In this document: piece by piece, positions 25,488 to 38,511 of the stretch
Position numbering within the stretch: position 1 is the stretch's first letter
How the letters are laid out: the number at the start of each line of letters is the position of its first letter
From: Alistipes sp.
GTDB lineage: Bacteria > Bacteroidota > Bacteroidia > Bacteroidales > Rikenellaceae
Length of the DNA: 42,124 nt
Reading direction: 5' to 3'
NCBI GenBank assembly: GCA_017403125.1
Contig: JAFQOR010000016.1
Span: forward strand, 1 to 42,124
Notes under the pieces: generated by a model
The model's input: the letters and a program-made list of their open reading frames with translations, nothing else
Databases searched by the model: none
What the model was told of the DNA's origin: nothing
Made by a program: the position numbers and the translations under genes

Positions 25488-27074
25488 CTAACGCAATCCC
25501 GGATTCATCGACTTATCAGCATAAGGATAGGGGCAATACATCTTTGCATCGCTCCATTCGCCCGTAACGGGAACGACCTCATTGCGGAAGACCCCCGGAG
25601 CGACCTCAATCATCGGATTCAGCTTACGATACTCGAAGTGGTCCTTCAAGCGATACATACGGAACATATCGCGCGAACGCGAGGCAAAGCCACACCAGTA
25701 GTATCCGGCAATCTCCCACCCATGCTCATTGTAGGCAGCCTCGGCAAGCTCCGTCGGACTCATTGCCATAGTATAGATATTGGACGTAGTGCCATCGGCA
25801 CGATTGCGCACACGATTTAACACATCGACAGCCTTCTGCGTAACCTGTCCCGAACGTCCCACAGCTTCGGCATACCAGCAATACACCTCCGCAAGGCGTA
25901 TTATTTGCAGCGTCTTTTGTCCTGCCGACTGTCCGGGCGAGGGATCGGCGTAGTCGAACTCCACGCCTCGCTCGGGGGCCTCGGCGGTCTTGATGAAGAC
26001 AGGTGCTACAACCTCGCGTGAAGCAGGTTCGGTATCGTACCACCAATCATATAATTCGCCATCGGCAAGCATAATCTTGGGGAAATAGGTAGCATCCTTT
26101 CGCGGGCCCTCCGGGAACTCCTTCCAGAACTTAATCTCTCCATTGGTATCCCCCCAGCCTCCTTGCTTCATTTCAAGCAATATATCGGTAAGAGGCATCG
26201 CATGCGACGAACGATCTCGATGATAGTACAATCCAAGAAGTAGCTCGGGATTAGAGTGGCTATATTTCAACGAGTATATATCGGCATAATTATCCAATAG
26301 TCGATAATAGTAGGTGCCATCCTCCACCATATCAATGACCTCCTCGGCCTTGGCTGCTGCCTTTGCATAATACTCCTCGCCAAGATTCATTGGCCACCCC
26401 GCCATACACATATATACATACGACATTGTAGCCTTAACCGCCCCCTGACTAACAGCCACATTCACTCCATTCTGAAAGTACGGAGCCTTGGTATAGTTCA
26501 CCGGACACCCCTTTTCTGCAATTTCGAGATCAGTTAATATAAGTTCATAGATCTGCTCTACGGTCCACAAAGGAGCGTTGTAGTCGATGGTTTCGTTGAG
26601 CATAACGGGCACAGGACCCCATGTCGTAACGAGATAGAAGTAGGAGTAGGCCCTCCAATAGTGAGCCTGCGCCAAAGCCTGCGTAAGCTCCTCCTCGGTA
26701 ACATTTGGCGTACGCGACGCATTGTTAATGATAAAGTTCGCCGCCTTGATAACCTTAAAGCGCTGCTCCCACATGCTCACCATCCACGCATTATTATCCG
26801 TTACGCTATATTGGTCATGCTCGCGTAGCGACTGCTTATTGCTCGCCGGATGGGTAGAAATATCGTCGCCCGATAGGAAGTTTGTTCCCACATAATTGTT
26901 GGCGCGTTGCGAAGTTGTAACAACGGAATATAGGGCATTGATCGATGACGCCAAATCCTCGGCATTAGAGAAGAACCCATCGCTTGACAACTTGCCATTA
27001 GGCTGCTCATCCAAAAAGTCGGAACATCCGACAAGAGTCATAAATGAAAGTGCTAAAACAACTATATATCTCAT
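25488..27074 (-). CDS. SusD/RagB-family outer-membrane nutrient-binding lipoprotein
   Basis: The 528-residue protein has a signal peptide with lipobox TLVGC (C17) followed by SDFLDEQPNG, the typical SusD start, and the N-terminal helical segment FFSNAEDLASSINALY. The C-terminal RagB/SusD region contains IIRLAEVYCWYAEAVGR and ELAEAAYNEHGWEIAGY. It should sit on the cell surface as the lid of the SusC channel encoded 15 bp upstream. No glycoside hydrolase, sulfatase or sensor/regulator gene lies next to the pair, so the ligand cannot be inferred. Confidence 0.95.
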   Translation of the reverse strand: MRYIVVLALSFMTLVGCSDFLDEQPNGKLSSDGFFSNAEDLASSINALYSVVTTSQRANNYVGTNFLSGDDISTHPASNKQSLREHDQYSVTDNNAWMVSMWEQRFKVIKAANFIINNASRTPNVTEEELTQALAQAHYWRAYSYFYLVTTWGPVPVMLNETIDYNAPLWTVEQIYELILTDLEIAEKGCPVNYTKAPYFQNGVNVAVSQGAVKATMSYVYMCMAGWPMNLGEEYYAKAAAKAEEVIDMVEDGTYYYRLLDNYADIYSLKYSHSNPELLLGLYYHRDRSSHAMPLTDILLEMKQGGWGDTNGEIKFWKEFPEGPRKDATYFPKIMLADGELYDWWYDTEPASREVVAPVFIKTAEAPERGVEFDYADPSPGQSAGQKTLQIIRLAEVYCWYAEAVGRSGQVTQKAVDVLNRVRNRADGTTSNIYTMAMSPTELAEAAYNEHGWEIAGYYWCGFASRSRDMFRMYRLKDHFEYRKLNPMIEVAPGVFRNEVVPVTGEWSDAKMYCPYPYADKSMNPGLR

Positions 27075-27089
27075 AATATGTCCATTTTT

Positions 27090-30056
27090 CTAAAAGATGA
27101 TTTTGAGTCCAAAGGTATACGTTCGAGGCACGGGATAGGCACCATAGTCCAATCCATCGTAGCCGTTATACACCTCCGGGTCCATACCCGAATATTTTGT
27201 AATGGTAAAGAGGTCCTGCGCACTTATCGAAAATTGAATATCGGCAAAACGTGTAATCGAACGTGGCAACATATACGATATTGTAATGTTCTTCAACTTC
27301 AAGAATGATGCATCCTCCAACCAGAATGTGGTGTTTGCATAGCTCTTATTGTTCGTATTCTTGACACTTGCATACTCTGCCATACTCTTATCCTCGACAT
27401 AGTCCCAACCCTTGTAGTAGGCATCACGAAGAGTTATGAAACGCGAAGCACCGCTCATCGAAGCTGTCATAAAACGACTCATATTCAACCTATCGTAGTC
27501 CAAAGCTCCGCTGAAAAAGATATTTACCGAGAGGTTGCGCCATGTGATAGTATTATTCCATCCCAACATCCAACGAGGACTTGCATTACCACGCACAACC
27601 AAATCCGAAGATGTGGGGGCATTGGTAACACCTCCGTCTGCCGTACGATAGATATTGGCTCCCTGCTCGTCGAAACCCAACCACTCATAAACGTAGAACG
27701 AGCCAAGCGGATAGCCGGGTTTCATAATCTGCATAGGTCCACCCAAATCGCTATAATTTGCGGTAAGCACAAAGTCGTTGCCAGCCAAATCTTTAACTTC
27801 GTTGTGAATGAAGGTCATATTGAATGTCGTCTCCCACTTTACGCCTCGGTTTACAGGGAAGCAGTTCAGCGAAAATTCGACACCTTGATTCAGCAGCTCG
27901 CCCTGATTCACCCAATAGCTGCCACCTCCGTTGTAGTGCGGAACCTGCTTTTGAAAGAGCAGGTCCTCGGTATATTTTCTAAACAGGTCCATCGAGATGT
28001 TGATGCCATAAATCGACAAATCGAGGCCCACATCGTATTGTGTGGTTGTCTCCCACGTAAGGTTAGGCGTTGCAAAGGTGTTGCCCCAATACCCCGTATA
28101 TCCGGTCGATGTGCCCCAGCCGTAGGAGGTGCTTGATAACATTCCGAGTGTGTTGTACGCGGCAATAGCCTCGTTACCCGTTATACCGTAGCTGGCACGC
28201 AACTTCAACTGCTCGACGATACCATTTCCTCGCAAGAATGGCTCGTTAGCAATATCCCATGCGACAGCAGCCGAAGGGAAGAAACCCCAACGGTTACGCC
28301 CCTGGAACTTCGAAGAACCATCGGCACGTAGCGCCGCGGTGAAGAAGTAGCGTTTATCGTAGTCGTAATTTAGGCGAACAATACCCGACATTAACGATGA
28401 CTGCGTATAGGAGTTACTCTCGCTACGTACCGTGGCATTGCTCACATCCCAATAGCCCACACTCTCGTTATTCAATCCACTACCGCTAATCGACATATTG
28501 GTTGTTACGCTCTTGCTCATCTCCCACACTGCATTTGCCGATATCGAGTGACGATTGAACGTGTTGGCATAGCTCAAATTGTTTGTATTCTGCCAATATT
28601 GGTACACCGATGCCTTGTTCGACATCGAGCTCGTTGCGCCCGAAGCTACTTTACTCGACGAAAATGCATAGGAGGGAGCATAGTCGAAGTTATAACCACC
28701 CTGGACATTGAGCGTCAAGCCATCATAAATATTGAAACGCAGCACCATATTGGCATTCAGGTTGTAGCTATACGAGTCGTTATCGCTCTCGGCCAACGCG
28801 CCATAAGGGTTGTTGCTCAACATGTTGTATGGGTCTTTGTTATAGACACCTGTTTCCGGGTCTTTTAGCTCCATCGTGGGCGAATAGTTGAGAATATGAT
28901 GCCAATTAGGGGCACTACCATCCTGATGCATAATAGCTCCACTAATCTTGGTCGATAGTTGCAACCACCGTCTGACATCAGCATCGATATTTGCTCTGAT
29001 GCCATATCTACTATACTTCGAAAGGATGGTTACGGCTTGTTGGTCAAGAACATTACCAGAGATTAGATAGCGAGCACTCTTGCCACCGCCAGATACAGCA
29101 AGATTATAGTCCTGTGTTACGGCAGTGCGTGTCATCAGGTCCACCCAATCGATGCCCTTCTCACCACTGCGATATAGCGCCATATCTTCATCAGATATGG
29201 TATTTGCTGCACGCAAGGTATTCAATGCCTCACCATATTCCGGGGCACTCAACAGATCGTAGTTTTTGCGCACACTCGATATTCCTATCTTACCGTCAAA
29301 CACTATGCGCGCCGGTCCCGATTCGCCACCGCGCGTAGTAATGAGCACTACACCGTTTGCACCTCGTGAGCCATATACCGCCGTCGAGGAGGCATCTTTC
29401 AACACCTCCATCGAGGCTATATCTTGTGGATTGAGCCCATCGATACCACTCGACGATATTATACCATCGACAACATATAGCGGATCGCTACTCTTGTTAA
29501 TGGACGTAGTACCGCGCACACGAACCTTGGCCCCTGCTCCCGGCATACCGCTTACGTTCGTAACCTCGACACCCGACGTTCGTCCTTGCAGAATATCAGC
29601 AACACTCTTCACCGGTTGATAACTAAAACTGCGCTCCGAGATTGTTGCTACCGACCCGGTGAGGTCACTCTTCTTCACCTCGCCATAACCAATAACAACC
29701 ACATCTCGAAGGTTGTGCGCCTCGATACTCAAAACCACATCGTATGTTGTTTGATTTGGGACTATCTCAAACTCTTTTGTCTCGTAACCCACGAACGACA
29801 CCACAACCGTAGAGCCTACTGCAACACGCAGGTCATACGCTCCCTCGTTATCGGCAACCGCACCATTGGTCGTATTATCCTTCTGGTAAATCATTGCCCC
29901 CGGAATCGCATCACCAACATCATCAACGACCCGTCCTCTTACCAATACTACATCGGTGCCTACATTTTGAGCATTGAGCAACGCAGGTGTCATAAGCATA
30001 AATATCAATGACATAACCATGCGCACTAACCAGTTACTCATAAATAATTTCAACAT
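27090..30056 (-). CDS. SusC/RagA-family TonB-dependent outer-membrane transporter
   Basis: The 988-residue protein has a signal peptide (probable cleavage after ALLNA, residue 29), a carboxypeptidase-regulatory-like beta-sandwich at about 38-115 (VRGRVVDDVGDAIPGAMI), a plug at about 120-235 (VVIGYGEVKKSDLTGSV, LYVVDGI, STAVYGSRGANGVVLITT) and a beta barrel ending in an aromatic residue (TYTFGLKIIF). It lacks the N-terminal STN domain used for ECF anti-sigma signalling, so transduction through that route is unlikely. It energises import with TonB of a substrate captured by the SusD partner. The start is uncertain among ATGs at residues 1, 6 and 13. Confidence 0.96.
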   Translation of the reverse strand: MLKLFMSNWLVRMVMSLIFMLMTPALLNAQNVGTDVVLVRGRVVDDVGDAIPGAMIYQKDNTTNGAVADNEGAYDLRVAVGSTVVVSFVGYETKEFEIVPNQTTYDVVLSIEAHNLRDVVVIGYGEVKKSDLTGSVATISERSFSYQPVKSVADILQGRTSGVEVTNVSGMPGAGAKVRVRGTTSINKSSDPLYVVDGIISSSGIDGLNPQDIASMEVLKDASSTAVYGSRGANGVVLITTRGGESGPARIVFDGKIGISSVRKNYDLLSAPEYGEALNTLRAANTISDEDMALYRSGEKGIDWVDLMTRTAVTQDYNLAVSGGGKSARYLISGNVLDQQAVTILSKYSRYGIRANIDADVRRWLQLSTKISGAIMHQDGSAPNWHHILNYSPTMELKDPETGVYNKDPYNMLSNNPYGALAESDNDSYSYNLNANMVLRFNIYDGLTLNVQGGYNFDYAPSYAFSSSKVASGATSSMSNKASVYQYWQNTNNLSYANTFNRHSISANAVWEMSKSVTTNMSISGSGLNNESVGYWDVSNATVRSESNSYTQSSLMSGIVRLNYDYDKRYFFTAALRADGSSKFQGRNRWGFFPSAAVAWDIANEPFLRGNGIVEQLKLRASYGITGNEAIAAYNTLGMLSSTSYGWGTSTGYTGYWGNTFATPNLTWETTTQYDVGLDLSIYGINISMDLFRKYTEDLLFQKQVPHYNGGGSYWVNQGELLNQGVEFSLNCFPVNRGVKWETTFNMTFIHNEVKDLAGNDFVLTANYSDLGGPMQIMKPGYPLGSFYVYEWLGFDEQGANIYRTADGGVTNAPTSSDLVVRGNASPRWMLGWNNTITWRNLSVNIFFSGALDYDRLNMSRFMTASMSGASRFITLRDAYYKGWDYVEDKSMAEYASVKNTNNKSYANTTFWLEDASFLKLKNITISYMLPRSITRFADIQFSISAQDLFTITKYSGMDPEVYNGYDGLDYGAYPVPRTYTFGLKIIF

Positions 30057-30090
30057 ACTGATTAAACTAATTATTCTCTGAATCTGGCGA

Positions 30091-30121
30091 CAAATATACT
30101 ATGTGCGCAATAAAATAACAA
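30091..30121 (-). promoter_or_regulatory. Promoter of the susC-susD pair
   Basis: On the minus strand TTG (30121-30119), a 20-base spacer and TATATTTG (30098-30091) match the Bacteroidota promoter consensus. It lies 35 bases upstream of the SusC start. Confidence 0.65.
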
Positions 30122-30178
30122 GATTTTCATAATAAAATTGACAATAAAAGGGGCGAATCGCCAATATTAGAGGGTGAA

Positions 30179-30214
30179 ATAATTATATAACATCCGATAA
30201 TTATATAACATCCG
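30179..30214. repeat. Two tandem copies of an 18-bp repeat
   Basis: The 18-mer ATAATTATATAACATCCG occurs twice without spacing (30179-30196 and 30197-30214), directly abutting the hairpin at 30213-30248. The region lies between the alkaline phosphatase stop and the susC promoter. Copy-number change by slippage is possible. Confidence 0.8.
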
Positions 30215-30248
30215 AGAGGCTGTTGCTTCCAAATGCAACAGCCTCTCG
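30213..30248 (-). terminator. Perfect 14-bp hairpin downstream of the alkaline phosphatase
   Basis: CGAGAGGCTGTTGC (30213-30226) and GCAACAGCCTCTCG (30235-30248) form a perfect stem with an 8-base loop. It lies 100 bp beyond the phosphatase stop codon. On the minus strand it is followed by the AT-rich 18-bp repeats rather than a clean T-run, so termination is probable but unproven. Confidence 0.55.
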
Positions 30249-30347
30249 ATCTACCATCTCTGCAAATTGGTAAACAGGTCGCTATTTGTGCTATGTGTGC
30301 AATTTATAGCCCCCTACATCCATTTTAACGCCACATGTAGCAACACA

Positions 30348-31442
30348 TCATAGCGACTCTACACTCCCATTATCTACTATACTTTTAATTTTGGCGCCTA
30401 ACTCCGAATTCTCCATAACACCGTTGATACGCTCGGCTCCCGTACCATATAGATATACCGGCACCATCGATGCCGAGTGTCCCTTGGTGGCAAAGCTATA
30501 AGATACCCCCTGCTCCGAGAGATTGAAATCGGCATCGTTGCTCACGATAGACAAACCTCCCGTCTCGTGGTCGGCAGTCACAACGACCAACGTGCCGGGA
30601 TTCTGCTCGGCATACATCACCGCTACCTCCACCGCAGCCATAAAGCCCTCCATCTCACGCTGCATAGCCTCTGCATCGTTGGCATGCCCCATGCCGTCGA
30701 TAAGCGAGCCCTCGACCATAAGAAAAAAGCCATTACCGTTGCTGCGCGCCTCGAGAAGGCGCAACGCCTCGTTCGTAGCATCGGCGAGGTAGTCTCCGCT
30801 ATCGGCTCCCACCTCCTTGTCGGCAAGTAGAGCCATAACACGACTATCGCCATCCACGGCTTCGAGCTCCGCCATACTCTGCACAAGGTCGAAACCGACA
30901 TCGTGCAATGCCTCCTCAACACACTCATTGTCACCATAAACCTCACGGAAGAGTGTCATGCCGCCACCCACAGCTACATCCATGTCGCTCTCAACAAGCT
31001 GACGTGTGATTGTCGCCGAGTCGTGGCGACTGATGCAGTGGGCATAGAATGCCGCAGGCGTAGCATGCTGCAAATATGTCGTAACAACAACACCCGTAGG
31101 CATACCCCTCATGGCAGCCAACTCCGCAACCGAGAATAGCGACTTTCCATCCTTATCGACACCAATATATGTATTGTTTGTCTTAACACCCGAACTCAAC
31201 GCCGTACCCGACGCTGCCGAGTCTGTTACACGATTATCTGCCGAATAGGTCTTCGTTAGCGCAACGTTATCGGCTCGGTCGAATATCGTCGTCTCGAAGT
31301 TGTTTTCGAGCTGCATCATCGACACCGAGGCAAGCCCCATTCCGTCACCAATCATATATATAATGTTTCGAACATCGTCCTGCGCATTCACCCCCGAAAC
31401 CGAGATTATCGCAAACGACAAAAGTGCTAATACCTTACGCAT
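30348..31442 (-). CDS. phoA: Secreted alkaline phosphatase (PhoA family), compact
   Basis: The 364-residue protein has a signal peptide (cleavage near VNA-QDD, residue 20), so it acts in the periplasm or outside. Active-site residues match E. coli PhoA: D33 (IGDGMG), nucleophile S75 (VTDSAASG), T128 with H126 (QHATPAAF), E244, D249 and H253 (MVEGSLIDGMGHAND), D291-H292 (TADHETGG) and H322 (KGHSA). Position 250, lysine in E. coli, is glycine. At 364 residues it is about 100 shorter than E. coli PhoA, implying reduced loops or crown region. It releases phosphate from organic monoesters. It lies upstream of susC-susD on the same strand but is separated by a 291-bp gap with a hairpin and a promoter. 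Confidence 0.93.
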   Translation of the reverse strand: MRKVLALLSFAIISVSGVNAQDDVRNIIYMIGDGMGLASVSMMQLENNFETTIFDRADNVALTKTYSADNRVTDSAASGTALSSGVKTNNTYIGVDKDGKSLFSVAELAAMRGMPTGVVVTTYLQHATPAAFYAHCISRHDSATITRQLVESDMDVAVGGGMTLFREVYGDNECVEEALHDVGFDLVQSMAELEAVDGDSRVMALLADKEVGADSGDYLADATNEALRLLEARSNGNGFFLMVEGSLIDGMGHANDAEAMQREMEGFMAAVEVAVMYAEQNPGTLVVVTADHETGGLSIVSNDADFNLSEQGVSYSFATKGHSASMVPVYLYGTGAERINGVMENSELGAKIKSIVDNGSVESL

Positions 31443-33576: not shown

Positions 33577-34695
33577 ATGAAATTCAGACTCATACCGGAC
33601 TTCCCGGGATATCGCACCATAGACCGCTATATCCTCTTAAAGTTCTTGCGCACCTACGTCTTCGGAATGGTGATGGTGCTCATTGTCATGGTCGTCTTCG
33701 ACTACGTTGAGAAGGTCGATGACTTCACCGAGTTGAAGGCTCCGACCGATGCCATCATCAACGACTACTACCTAAACTTTATCCCCTACTCGATATGCCA
33801 ATTCAGTGCGCTGTTCTGCTTCATCTCCGTTATCTTCTTCACGTCGAAGATGGCTGGACAGACCGAGATTGTGGCGATACTGTCGGGAGGCGTTAGCTTC
33901 AAACGCCTGCTGTGGCCCTACATGATAGGAGCAACGCTCATCACAACACTTACGCTCGTCTTGGGCATGTGGGTTATCCCCGTCACGCAGCGTGCTAGCA
34001 TCGAGTTTCAGGACAAATATCTCAAAAAGAACAAGGAGGTGCTCTACGACAAGCACGTATATCGCCAGATAGAGCCTGGCATGTTTGCCTATATTCGAGG
34101 CTACTCACCCAATATCGACGTCATACCCTTCTTTGCATTGGAGAAGTACGAGGATACGGAGCTTGTGGGTAAACTTGAAGCGGCAAGTGTAACCTTCGAC
34201 GAGGAGACGCGCCGTTGGAGTGCCAACCGCTATGTAACCTACTCGCGTGACTCACTCGGCATACTCCACGCCAAGGAGCATGCCTACCATCTCGACACGC
34301 TTATCAACCTCGACGCACGCGAGTTAAGCCAGATAAAACTGCTTGTTAAGACCATGACTATCGGTGAGCTAAATGACTTCTTGGCACAGCAGCGCTCCAA
34401 GGGTAGCGACGACTCCTACATCATTGAGGTAGAGCGCCACACGCGCTACTCCTACCCAATATCAACCTTCATATTGACCATCATCGGCGTTGCCCTCTCG
34501 TCGCGCAAGGTGCGTGGCGGCATGGGCATGCACATCGGTGTCGGCATTGCCCTATGTTTCGGCTACCTGATGTTGGGACGAATATGTGAGCAGATTGCAA
34601 TCAGTGGCTCGCTATCACCTCTGATAGGCGTATGGCTACCCAACATACTATTCACACTCATAGCAATATATCTCTACATTAAAGCACCCAAATAA
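33577..34695 (+). CDS. lptG: LPS export permease LptF/LptG family (YjgP/YjgQ)
   Basis: The 372-residue inner-membrane protein has three hydrophobic segments near 30-120, a periplasmic beta-jellyroll-like middle (residues about 125-275) and three more near 285-370, the LptF/G topology. IDRYILLKFLRTYVFGM opens the first coupling helix, and EIVAILSGGVSFKRLLWPY matches the cytoplasmic coupling loop that contacts LptB. It forms the permease half of the exporter powered by the LptB encoded at 17350. LptF versus LptG cannot be settled from sequence alone. It ends 2 bp before the mqnE-PASTA fusion gene, so the two are co-transcribed. Confidence 0.92.
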   Translation: MKFRLIPDFPGYRTIDRYILLKFLRTYVFGMVMVLIVMVVFDYVEKVDDFTELKAPTDAIINDYYLNFIPYSICQFSALFCFISVIFFTSKMAGQTEIVAILSGGVSFKRLLWPYMIGATLITTLTLVLGMWVIPVTQRASIEFQDKYLKKNKEVLYDKHVYRQIEPGMFAYIRGYSPNIDVIPFFALEKYEDTELVGKLEAASVTFDEETRRWSANRYVTYSRDSLGILHAKEHAYHLDTLINLDARELSQIKLLVKTMTIGELNDFLAQQRSKGSDDSYIIEVERHTRYSYPISTFILTIIGVALSSRKVRGGMGMHIGVGIALCFGYLMLGRICEQIAISGSLSPLIGVWLPNILFTLIAIYLYIKAPK

Positions 34696-34697
34696 TC

Positions 34698-37370
34698 ATG
34701 CACACCCTATACGATATCATAGAGTTGGTACGTCGCGGCGAGAGAGTATCGGCAGAGGATGCCGTGACGCTATGGCGCGAAGCCCCGCTGTGGGTACTTG
34801 GCGAACTTGCTACGGAGCGCAAACGCAAATGTAGCGGCGATATGGTCTTCTTCAACCGCAATATACATATCGAACCTACGAACATATGTCTTTTCAACTG
34901 CGAGTTCTGCTCATTCCGCCGTCGCGAGGGCGATGCCGACGCATGGTATATGACACTCGACGAGGTCGTAGCACGCGCAGCCGAGATGAAGGATAGCGAC
35001 ATAACAGAGGTTCATATCGTTGGTGGCGTACATCCGACACATACGCTCGATAGCTACTGCGACATGATTCGTGGCGTGAAGAGCGTGCTGCCAAACGTCA
35101 CGGTTAAGGCATATACCGCCGTCGAGATTCTCTACATGATACGCCGTGCCGAGGTCAGCATCGTCGAGGGATTAACGCGACTCAAAGATGCAGGCATGGA
35201 GTGCATACCGGGTGGCGGTGCCGAGATTTTCGACGAGGAGCTACGTAGCAAGATATGCCCCGACAAGTGCTCATCGAGTGAGTGGCTGGCTGTACACCGC
35301 GCTGCACACAACCTCGGTATCAAGACCAACTGCACGATGCTATATGGTCATATCGAGAGCATCGAGCAGCGCGTGGATCACCTCATGCGCCTGCGCAAAC
35401 TCCAAGACGAAGCCCCGGGCTTTGATGCATTCATTGCACTGAAATATCGCAGTCGCAACAACCGTATGTCCGAGGTAGGAGAGTGTAGCGTCAAGGAGGA
35501 TTTGCGTACGATAGCCATGAGTCGCATAATCTTGGATAACATACCTCATATCAAGGCATATTGGGTAGCATATGGCAAGGCAACAACGGAGATGGCTTTG
35601 GCATTTGGTGCCGACGACATCGATGGCACCATAGACAATACCACCAAGATATACTCCATGGCGGGTGGTGATGAGCGTCCGGGCATGAGCGTTGAGGAGC
35701 TATGTTCACTCGTTCGCGATGCAGGCTTTGTACCTGTCGAGCGCGATACGCACTACAACATCATCAAACGTTATGACAACTGCGATGAGGCGAAACCAAC
35801 AACCAATACCAGCCAGAAGGTTGCCGCAGCAACGGCTGCAGTGACCGCTGCAACGGCAGCAGCTGCGAGCACCACAGCCACAACAGCTGCCACGACTGCA
35901 AGTGTCGCCACAGGTGCCGTAGCAACGAGTGCCACTGCCGCAACAAAAATAGGGGCAGAGGGTGGCAAGAGGGCTACACAGAGTAGTGTTAAAGTTGCCG
36001 AAACAGTCGCCACAGCAGCTACGACAGCCGTAAAAATGGGGGCAACAGCCATCACCGAGAGCAACACAAAAAAGGATAGTGAGGATAATAGCACAATAGA
36101 GATGAAATCGGAGAAGAGACAGGGAGCTACGCAACGCAACTCCGCCAAGAGAGAGGAGGAGTCGTGGTGGGGAGCTCTTGTGGCAAAGATAAAGGGGCCG
36201 AAGCGCGATAAAGCCACAACCAAAGGCAGTGCAACAAAGAGTATAAAAGCGCCAAGTGGTGGTCGTCGCCGAGGCAAAGGCAAGGGCGGAAAGTGGCAAC
36301 GATTTTGGGATGCAACGAAGAGGGCGTACCAACGCTACACGATACTCTTCCACATACTCTTCATCTTCATCTTCCTGCTTATCCTCGTAGGAGCGCTCTA
36401 CCTTGGATTGAAGTGGGGCACACGCCATAACGAGACTACTGCCGTGCCTAACTTCATAGGCATGACACTCGACGAGGCAGAGCGTACGGCAGCAGCCGCG
36501 GAGCTACATATCGTTGTTCGCGACACGGTATTCGACGAATATGCCATGCCGGGTGAGGTTTTGGAGCAGTCGCCACGCACTTCGGATATACGCACCGTTA
36601 CCGTAAAGCCCGGTCGTAACATCTACCTCACGATAAACACCCCCAACTCCCGCATGGTCGATATGATAAACGTCTCGGGCAAGACGCTACGTAGCGCCAT
36701 CAGCGACCTTGCACGTGCAGGACTCACCATCGAGAGGCTTATCTACGAGCCCGACTACTCGCACGACAATGTTATACGTCAGCGCGTGGGCAACCGCGAG
36801 GTAACCAAGGACAATATAGCTACGTGGGGCAAGGTGCCATACAACACGGGAGTTACACTCTATGTAACATTCGCCGTAGATAAGAATAGCCGCACCACCG
36901 AGGAGCCCAACGTCGTGGGAATGACCATGCGACAGGTCAAGAGCGCACTATGGAACAAGGGATTGAACATTGGCGAGGTGCACTACGACAACAGCATTGA
37001 GGACCGTATCGACCGTCGTGACGCCCGCGTCTATATGCAGGTGCTCAACTCCGAGGTGGCCAACATACCCCGCCTCGGCGATGCCGTGTCGTTGTATCTC
37101 ACATGCGACAGCCTACTTGTGGATTCATTAGCACCGCTGGTAAAGCAACGTCTTGCGGGACAGAAGTTAGCCATAACAGAGTTCGAAACGCTGCAACCCG
37201 TAATCGATGGCGAGGAGATGCCAACCGAGGAGATGATGGGCGAAGAGTCTATTGAACAGAGTGGCAATAATAGCCTTGACTATAACTATACGGACATCCC
37301 CATGCCTACCTACGAGGACAATACATCGTTGGAGTTTTACTACGGCGACGAAGAGGATAACTTCTTCTAA
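34698..37370 (+). CDS. Aminofutalosine synthase MqnE fused to a membrane-anchored PASTA protein
   Basis: One 890-codon frame joins two proteins. Residues 1-362 form a complete MqnE: radical-SAM motif C64-x3-C68-x2-C71 (EPTNICLFNCEFCSF), EVHIVGGVHP at 104, GGGAEIF at 172 and the usual end near VERDTHYNIIKRYD. MqnE adds a radical from SAM to carboxyvinyloxybenzoate in the futalosine route to menaquinone. Residues 363-545 are a low-complexity Ala/Thr linker turning Lys/Arg-rich (GGRRRGKGKGGKWQRF). A transmembrane helix lies at about 549-572. Three PASTA-like repeats follow at about 582-648, 652-727 and 735-803 (VPNFIGMTLDEA; MVDMINVSGKTL; EPNVVGMTMRQV), then an acidic tail. Topology puts MqnE in the cytosol and PASTA in the periplasm. 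In other Bacteroidales the PASTA protein is, as I recall, a separate gene just before rluD, the position seen here. Internal ATGs (residues 447, 469) could give a separate PASTA product. Confidence 0.88.
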   Translation: MHTLYDIIELVRRGERVSAEDAVTLWREAPLWVLGELATERKRKCSGDMVFFNRNIHIEPTNICLFNCEFCSFRRREGDADAWYMTLDEVVARAAEMKDSDITEVHIVGGVHPTHTLDSYCDMIRGVKSVLPNVTVKAYTAVEILYMIRRAEVSIVEGLTRLKDAGMECIPGGGAEIFDEELRSKICPDKCSSSEWLAVHRAAHNLGIKTNCTMLYGHIESIEQRVDHLMRLRKLQDEAPGFDAFIALKYRSRNNRMSEVGECSVKEDLRTIAMSRIILDNIPHIKAYWVAYGKATTEMALAFGADDIDGTIDNTTKIYSMAGGDERPGMSVEELCSLVRDAGFVPVERDTHYNIIKRYDNCDEAKPTTNTSQKVAAATAAVTAATAAAASTTATTAATTASVATGAVATSATAATKIGAEGGKRATQSSVKVAETVATAATTAVKMGATAITESNTKKDSEDNSTIEMKSEKRQGATQRNSAKREEESWWGALVAKIKGPKRDKATTKGSATKSIKAPSGGRRRGKGKGGKWQRFWDATKRAYQRYTILFHILFIFIFLLILVGALYLGLKWGTRHNETTAVPNFIGMTLDEAERTAAAAELHIVVRDTVFDEYAMPGEVLEQSPRTSDIRTVTVKPGRNIYLTINTPNSRMVDMINVSGKTLRSAISDLARAGLTIERLIYEPDYSHDNVIRQRVGNREVTKDNIATWGKVPYNTGVTLYVTFAVDKNSRTTEEPNVVGMTMRQVKSALWNKGLNIGEVHYDNSIEDRIDRRDARVYMQVLNSEVANIPRLGDAVSLYLTCDSLLVDSLAPLVKQRLAGQKLAITEFETLQPVIDGEEMPTEEMMGEESIEQSGNNSLDYNYTDIPMPTYEDNTSLEFYYGDEEDNFF

Positions 37371-37410
37371 TGCAGAGGACAATAATCACAAAAAAAAACA
37401 GACTACACAG

Positions 37411-38511
37411 GTGACCGATAGAGATAGTATTAGCCAAGAGCTCCTGCTCGACGAACAGATTGACTCGACAGCAGCAGAGCTTATGGACGAGGGCGACGAG
37501 ATGTACGAGCACTTCTCGCTCACGGTAGATAAGGGGCAGTCGCTCATGCGCCTCGACAAGTTCCTGACAGCACGTTTGGAGCACACCTCGCGCAACCGCA
37601 TACAATCTGCTGCCGACAACCAGAGCATCTTGGTCAATGGCAAGCCACAGAAGTCGAGTTATAAGGTAAAACCCCTCGACCAGATATCTATTGTTATGCC
37701 ATATCCCCGACGCGAGTCGGAGATAACACCCGAAAATATTCCACTCGACATCGTCTTTGAAGATGACGATATCATCGTGGTAAACAAGCCGGCAGGCATG
37801 GTCGTACATCCCGGCGTAGGCAACCACAGCGGCACGCTGGTACACGCCTTGGCATACCACCTACGCGATATTCCGATGTTCGCCGAGGGTAATGCTCGCG
37901 CAGGACTTGTTCACCGTATCGACAAGGATACATCCGGGCTGCTCGTAGTTGCCAAGAGCGAGCGAGCTCATACCTCTTTGGCAAAGCAGTTCTTCGACCA
38001 CACCATATATCGCCGCTACGTAGCTCTGGTCTGGGGCAATATCGCCGAGGACGAGGGTACGATTACGGGACACATAGGTCGCAATCCCAAAGATAGGTTG
38101 CAGATGTATGTCTTTGCCGACGGCTCGGATGGCAAGCACGCCGTAACACACTTCAAGGTGTTGCGCCGCTATGGATACGTAACACTGGTTGAGTGTCGCC
38201 TCGAAACGGGACGCACGCACCAGATACGTGTTCACATGTCGTGGCAGGGGCACCCACTATTCAATGACGAGCGTTATGGCGGCAACCGCATATTGAAGGG
38301 CACAACATTCATGAAGTACAAGCAGTTCATCGAAAATTGCTTCAAGCTTATACCTCGACAGTCGTTACATGCACGAGCCTTGGGCTTCGACCACCCCGTG
38401 ACGGGCAAATATGTGCAGTTCGAGTCGGAGCTACCCAACGACTTCAAGGCCGTTCTTGCGAAGTGGGATACCTACACCGATGCTGTGGGGCTCGACCCCG
38501 ACGAGATTTAG
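37411..38511 (+). CDS. rluD: RluA/RluD-family 23S rRNA pseudouridine synthase
   Basis: The 366-residue protein (GTG start at 37411) has an S4 RNA-binding domain (LDKFLTARLEHTSRNRIQSA) and the catalytic HRIDKDTSGLLVVAK motif, plus GRTHQIRVHMSWQGHPLFND. It isomerises uridine to pseudouridine in 23S rRNA, probably at the helix-69 positions. The start is unclear. The ATG at 37370 overlaps the stop of the preceding gene (TAATG) but is one base out of frame because of a nine-A run at 37390-37398; one extra A, or a -1 slip on A AAA AAC, would join it to this frame. GTG 37411 and in-frame ATGs near 37483 and 37501 are alternatives; everything from about 37505 is needed for the S4 domain. Confidence 0.9.
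   Translation: MTDRDSISQELLLDEQIDSTAAELMDEGDEMYEHFSLTVDKGQSLMRLDKFLTARLEHTSRNRIQSAADNQSILVNGKPQKSSYKVKPLDQISIVMPYPRRESEITPENIPLDIVFEDDDIIVVNKPAGMVVHPGVGNHSGTLVHALAYHLRDIPMFAEGNARAGLVHRIDKDTSGLLVVAKSERAHTSLAKQFFDHTIYRRYVALVWGNIAEDEGTITGHIGRNPKDRLQMYVFADGSDGKHAVTHFKVLRRYGYVTLVECRLETGRTHQIRVHMSWQGHPLFNDERYGGNRILKGTTFMKYKQFIENCFKLIPRQSLHARALGFDHPVTGKYVQFESELPNDFKAVLAKWDTYTDAVGLDPDEI

Follow-up and report, generated by a model that had tools for sequence, protein, structure and literature searches.

An mqnE-PASTA gene fusion in Alistipes-related bacteria and a candidate internal start codon within its linker

The aminofutalosine synthase MqnE is represented by the family model TIGR03700 and by the solved structures PDB 6xi9 and 6xig, and the protein described here resembles these in having a full-length radical-SAM domain with its cysteines kept, but differs in carrying in addition a C-terminal linker, a single transmembrane helix (TM) and PASTA repeats. 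The order of a cytosolic enzyme, a TM and external PASTA repeats is also that of the PASTA kinases (PknB/Stk1) and the PASTA penicillin-binding proteins. Unlike in those proteins, the enzymatic part belongs to the biosynthetic radical-SAM proteins, and neither a kinase nor a transpeptidase domain came up in a Pfam scan of the fused protein; the kinase model NF033483 matches residues 537-763 only, at 70.5 bits against a cut-off of 450. A literature search, with most subscription papers outside its scope, returned no paper pairing MqnE or menaquinone with PASTA and none evidently on the PASTA protein of this locus; as far as the accessible parts of the sources go, a search on aminofutalosine synthase and fusion gave nothing evidently about MqnE-PASTA.

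The fused gene and its neighbours

The window, that is, the whole 42,124-nucleotide stretch of Alistipes sp. DNA that was analysed, contains the fused gene on its forward strand at 34698..37370. As the initial annotation had it, this is a single uninterrupted frame of 890 codons, running from ATG to TAA (stop at 37368-37370) with no internal stop. The MqnE domain occupies 34698..35771 (residues 1-358). Its description as a full radical-SAM MqnE is upheld by the NCBIfam model TIGR03700, which matches residues 8-356 at 447.6 bits (cut-off 434.55) over positions 2-351 of the 351 in the model; the score to the stricter model NF006276, 360.1 bits, lies below its cut-off of 560. Pfam places Radical_SAM at residues 58-229 and CofH_C at 240-356, the radical-SAM motif CX3CX2C is present in alignments as C64, C68 and C71, and the closest solved structure by sequence is the aminodeoxyfutalosine synthase 6xi9 (E 5.3e-108). 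This half is predicted to be an aminofutalosine synthase. The same genome (G000) provides futalosine-pathway company in the form of at least two PF02621 (MqnA/MqnD-type) matches and an MqnC above cut-off. The initial annotation had also raised the matter of a second mqnE; neither that nor a free PASTA copy was found at E 0.001 in this genome, which is 88% complete, the other matches being one MqnC and one weak radical-SAM match.

The MqnE domain is followed by a low-complexity, stop-free linker (35772..36341, residues 359-548), with pLDDT below 50 at residues 342-532, and then by the TM (36342..36410, residues 549-571), which was located by hydropathy and is modelled as a helix at 548-574. A Lys/Arg-rich stretch lies just before the TM, and by the positive-inside rule the protein would be oriented with its N terminus inside. 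PASTA repeat 1 (36441..36638, residues 582-647) is a match to PF03793, with a whole-protein Pfam score of 72.8 bits against a gathering threshold of 23.2 and this one stretch above cut-off. Three PASTA-like repeats had been claimed at the outset. The first is confirmed by Pfam, whereas the second (36651..36872, about residues 652-725) and the third (36900..37103, about residues 735-802) are PASTA-like by the alpha-beta-beta-beta pattern of a low-confidence AlphaFold2 model and were missed by Pfam. That model, of the full protein, was built from 8 sequences with a mean pLDDT of 55.3 and was used for rough secondary structure alone.

Immediately upstream, on the same strand, lies an LptG/LptF-like permease gene (33577..34695) that scores 177 bits, below the LptG cut-off of 240, and stops 2 nt short of the fused gene, and the same upstream neighbour was seen in the congeners examined. 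Downstream lies an RluA-family, RluD-like pseudouridine synthase (37252..38511, forward strand; these are open-frame coordinates rather than a mapped start), which is the downstream neighbour in relatives too. The expectation that the PASTA gene stands just before rluD is borne out in 26 of 27 hand-picked loci, RluD not being found within the stretch examined in the remaining one (L162). The complete order TGT-LptG-(MqnE)-PASTA-RluD-YgiQ-like is present in 22 of the 27, and four of the five loci departing from it are from other genera. Eight of the 27 loci have no mqnE, and in these LptG adjoins PASTA, so that mqnE is absent exactly from between lptG and PASTA. Elsewhere in the window, at 25488-31442 on the reverse strand, a SusD-like protein, a SusC-like TonB receptor and an alkaline phosphatase family protein are clustered in a possible nutrient-uptake locus.

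Distribution and history of the fusion

The genus search covered 180 genomes, nearly all of them drafts and probably MAGs, and mqnE was found, among the matches listed, in 114, for all of which the mqnE locus was fetched. Frames were judged by direct reading of these loci, since the automatic open-frame length can cross a stop (G126 vs L075). The fused MqnE-TM-PASTA gene is present in 38 of the 114, counted as species-level genomes (37 whole, and one, G092, cut over two contigs), and separate same-strand neighbours with mqnE directly upstream of the PASTA gene are present in 74; no PASTA was seen near mqnE in the other two loci (L064, L147). One of the separate loci, L076, is so classed at E 1e-5, its PASTA call being missed at E 1e-8, and L049 and L142 represent one genome. 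Seven fused loci from a named collection, titled Alistipes sp. or Rikenellaceae MAGs from ruminant and deer gut, turned out to be sequences already present among the 38 and were not double-counted. The domain order first noted in the window thus recurs in 37 other congeneric genomes, which is far beyond chance. An assembly or sequencing artefact was considered and rejected for the main clade, given the same fusion in 38 genomes. The split form that the initial annotation proposed looking for in relatives does exist, in the 74 congeners, but is not universal.

The separate loci are closely set, with a median spacing of 11 nt (from -26 to 166) between the mqnE stop and the PASTA start. In 19 of the 74 (e.g., L081, L084, L088 and L109) one stop alone stands between mqnE and PASTA frames that are in register, so that in these loci loss of the stop would fuse the genes. 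No mqnE was found, among the matches listed, in 66 of the 180 congeners, and the PASTA half is present in 62 of those 66. Three of the other four genomes (G050, G055 and G076) have strong PF02621 matches, among the matches listed, yet neither mqnE nor PASTA was found in them, and G164 likewise gave neither; because PASTA is missing along with mqnE, the locus may simply be absent from these four assemblies.

Beyond the genus, the family is represented by 20 loci of other genera, which include every row listed with a frame above 460; the genes are separate neighbours in 16, no PASTA match lies in the stretch examined in four, and no locus is fused. Within other families of the order, mqnE adjoins the PASTA gene in three of five loci (L175-L177 of L173-L177). 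MqnE is matched at the set limit in 98 of 295 genomes of the order, where the longest frame among the matches listed, the window's genome aside, is 458 aa, and in 49 of 395 genomes of the phylum, where frames of 618-682 aa appear in 14 rows. No MqnE-PASTA fusion was seen outside the genus, five of those 14 long phylum frames having been examined.

Three changes of the fused state are required on a tree of 133 MqnE sequences, of which 37 are fused, 90 separate and 6 without either call; this tree leaves out L002-L010, repeat loci and the still-counted G092. On a smaller tree of 49 rows, carefully built, the number is again three (5-95% range over 200 bootstrap trees, 3-3). The simplest history has one old fusion, in the ancestor of a 39-species clade with branch support of 100, a later split in three genomes, and an independent fusion in G133. 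The split trio falls within this clade on a branch with support of 99/97, but an AU test did not reject a tree that unites 36 fused rows to the exclusion of these three (p 0.225), which makes fission of the trio likely rather than proven; if the trio is indeed nested, its PASTA start would descend from an ATG internal to the fused gene. The G133 fusion (L145), known from a single draft genome, may be erroneous. The genus may be regarded as a natural gene-fusion experiment, with the two genes as separate neighbours (74 genomes), fused (38) or with PASTA alone (62), in which three of the 74 may be re-split and one of the 38 is apparently fused afresh.

The MqnE half has a median dN/dS of 0.042 and the PASTA half one of 0.103 over 16 close pairs selected for the comparison, and MqnE is strongly constrained. 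Among 95 unfused sequences (L146 excluded), 98 columns reach at least 99% conservation, and 37 fused sequences show exceptions at nine of these, the cysteines not included. One such position is an Arg, equivalent to residue 251 in the window, that is conserved at this level in unfused MqnE and is His in 20 of the 37 fused sequences (L019, L020, L022-L030, L032, L034-L040 and L042). The window's MqnE retains the Arg and has P247A and D314N.

The linker and a candidate internal start

The proposed course of events begins with loss, in one lineage, of the stop between adjacent genes of an lptG-mqnE-PASTA-rluD operon. On reaching the end of mqnE, a ribosome would then go on to translate a long disordered linker and the PASTA protein as well, so that MqnE-PASTA would sit in the inner membrane with MqnE cytosolic and the PASTA repeats periplasmic, while the old PASTA start codon, now inside the linker, would most likely still initiate and yield a second, short product, free PASTA. 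On balance we think it probable that both a membrane-tethered MqnE-PASTA and, by internal initiation, a free PASTA protein are made. The placement of MqnE at the inner membrane, suggested in the initial annotation, follows from the frame and the TM as a prediction; the existence of both products, a use for the long one and the described topology are inferred.

Between the end of MqnE and the TM, the 38 fused genes have 49-189 codons, with a median of 87.5. The equivalent stretch in the 74 separate loci has a median of 33.5 codon-equivalents, so that the linker lengthened after fusion. None of the 38 linkers contains an in-frame stop, whereas the alternative frames have 138 and 324. Linker dN/dS is 0.54 to the left of the internal ATG discussed below (12 of 15 pairs usable) and 0.18 to its right (9 of 16 usable), values that are near saturation and of which the right-hand one includes three near-identical pairs. 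The linker is fast-evolving yet open in 38 of 38 genes, and its openness and greater length suggest that the cell has a use for the long form.

The initial annotation had also allowed for an accidental read-through, kept because the halves fold independently. A recent accident is now unlikely, because the fusion is common to 38 species-level genomes and the linker has stayed open. An older, tolerated and near-neutral read-through, in which proteases would cut the linker and free MqnE and free PASTA would do the work, agrees with the standard form of each half, the predicted disorder of the linker and the existence of the split form inside or beside the fused clade. Also in its favour, the segment left of the internal ATG, taken alone, is expected under position-wise shuffling to be open in 22.1 of the 38 genes, with a joint log10 probability of -11.2 if the genes are independent. 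Against it, the whole linker is expected to be open in only 7.9 of 38, and lengthening would not be expected of a neutral linker; neither point is decisive, but we regard neutral read-through as distinctly unlikely.

The linker columns are unalignable, and a conserved Met column was not demonstrable, at most eight of the 38 Mets sharing one; alignment-free tests were used for this reason. An in-frame linker ATG is present in all 38 fused genes against 24.7 expected from the background Met rate, and one lies 20-80 aa before the TM in all 38 against 17.9 expected, the range having been chosen after viewing the data. Bacteroidetes are described, in the part of the source available to us, as lacking Shine-Dalgarno sequences, with initiation tuned by upstream bases, including A at -3, and by mRNA structure (PMC6847099). 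A start-context model was trained on 71 split-gene PASTA starts and compared with 500 rounds of codon shuffling. The mean best linker score is 6.01, against a null of -3.51 (sd 0.88; highest of 500 rounds, -0.68) and comparison medians of -11.4 for ATGs in the MqnE body, -11.4 in PASTA and -9.2 for out-of-frame linker ATGs. Taken singly, 25 of the 38 genes reach p <=0.05 and 13, the window's gene included, do not. With the ATG chosen by position only, the folding energy is -2.5 kcal/mol compared with -7.5 elsewhere in the same linkers, a value reached in none of 20,000 draws, and 19 of the 38 ATGs fall within the most open tenth of their own linker. The 38 species are related and hence not independent, and the shuffle statistics ignore this kinship.

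Upstream of the best ATG, 9.05 of 18 bases are A, where chance would give 7.04, in the 37 genes that have a Met within the range used. Single-position frequencies count against a start: A stands at -3 in 0.42 of the chosen ATGs, hardly more than the 0.36 of the remaining linker codons and less than the 0.56 of split starts, and at -13 the chosen ATGs have 0.34 vs 0.62. The distance from Met to TM is longer, with a median of 44.5 aa in fused genes vs 24 in split genes. The window's own candidate, Met469 (36102..36104, forward strand), lies 80 aa before the TM and has a poor start-context score of -0.9 (shuffle p 0.30) and an MFE of -0.6, just 3% of the tested linker positions being as open (rank 0.03). 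At the level of the group, an in-frame start codon in start-like context is kept in relatives, all 38 genes having a linker ATG.

A rival reading has the long protein alone being made, with MqnE tethered and the linker ATGs as functionless relics of the old start. It accounts for the open frame and for the linker being longer than in separate loci, for the weak context of the window's ATG, and for the composition of the left part of the linker, which is rich in E, A, V, P and K and poor in L, F and W, like protein spacers. However, an ATG with open, A-rich surroundings persists where little else aligns, and a relic should have decayed at the divergence seen here (dS in MqnE of about 0.4-1.9 over the 16 pairs). 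We consider a sole long product possible but unlikely. The linker ATG looks like the old PASTA start codon, kept in the fused genes, and a kept start argues that the short form is wanted as well.

Possible roles and comparison with known systems

If both products are made, selection might have kept the enzyme on an envelope-sensing PASTA protein, with the ratio of tethered to free forms linking quinone synthesis to envelope growth; judged from sequence, this function is decidedly doubtful. The substrate and product of MqnE are soluble, which counts against a control in which PASTA would bind muropeptides or a wall precursor and shift the place or activity of MqnE, so that wall state would govern menaquinone synthesis. 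The PASTA part has no solved-structure relative at E 0.01, and the PASTA gene occurs without mqnE in 62 congeners. Such control agrees with the inferred topology and with the PASTA repeats of kinases, which are said to sense muropeptides in what could be consulted of PMC5706477, but we rate it highly improbable.

Two questions are made testable by this locus, namely whether fusing operon neighbours preserves the second gene's own start, and what role the widely kept PASTA protein has. If tethering matters, menaquinone synthesis would be connected to the envelope. In Alistipes-related gut bacteria the gene for an enzyme of the vitamin K2 pathway has been joined to its envelope-protein neighbour, and the joined form has persisted over dozens of species.

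The free-standing PASTA proteins of congeners, encoded between lptG or mqnE and rluD, share the TM, the PASTA domain and the neighbourhood of the fused gene, and differ in that the window's protein has its N terminus joined to MqnE. MqnE also has a C-terminal partner in five fusions from another class of the same phylum (L197-L201; 618-682 aa), but there the partner is a menaquinone-pathway enzyme, MqnA-like by PF02621 in Pfam for L197 and by eye from shared residues for the other four, and no TM or PASTA match is present. Single-frame genes with two isoforms, such as SpaO as described in the part of the literature available, resemble the arrangement proposed here in giving a long and a short C-terminal product; in the mqnE-PASTA gene, where the products are predicted, the internal start differs in that it apparently once opened a gene of its own.
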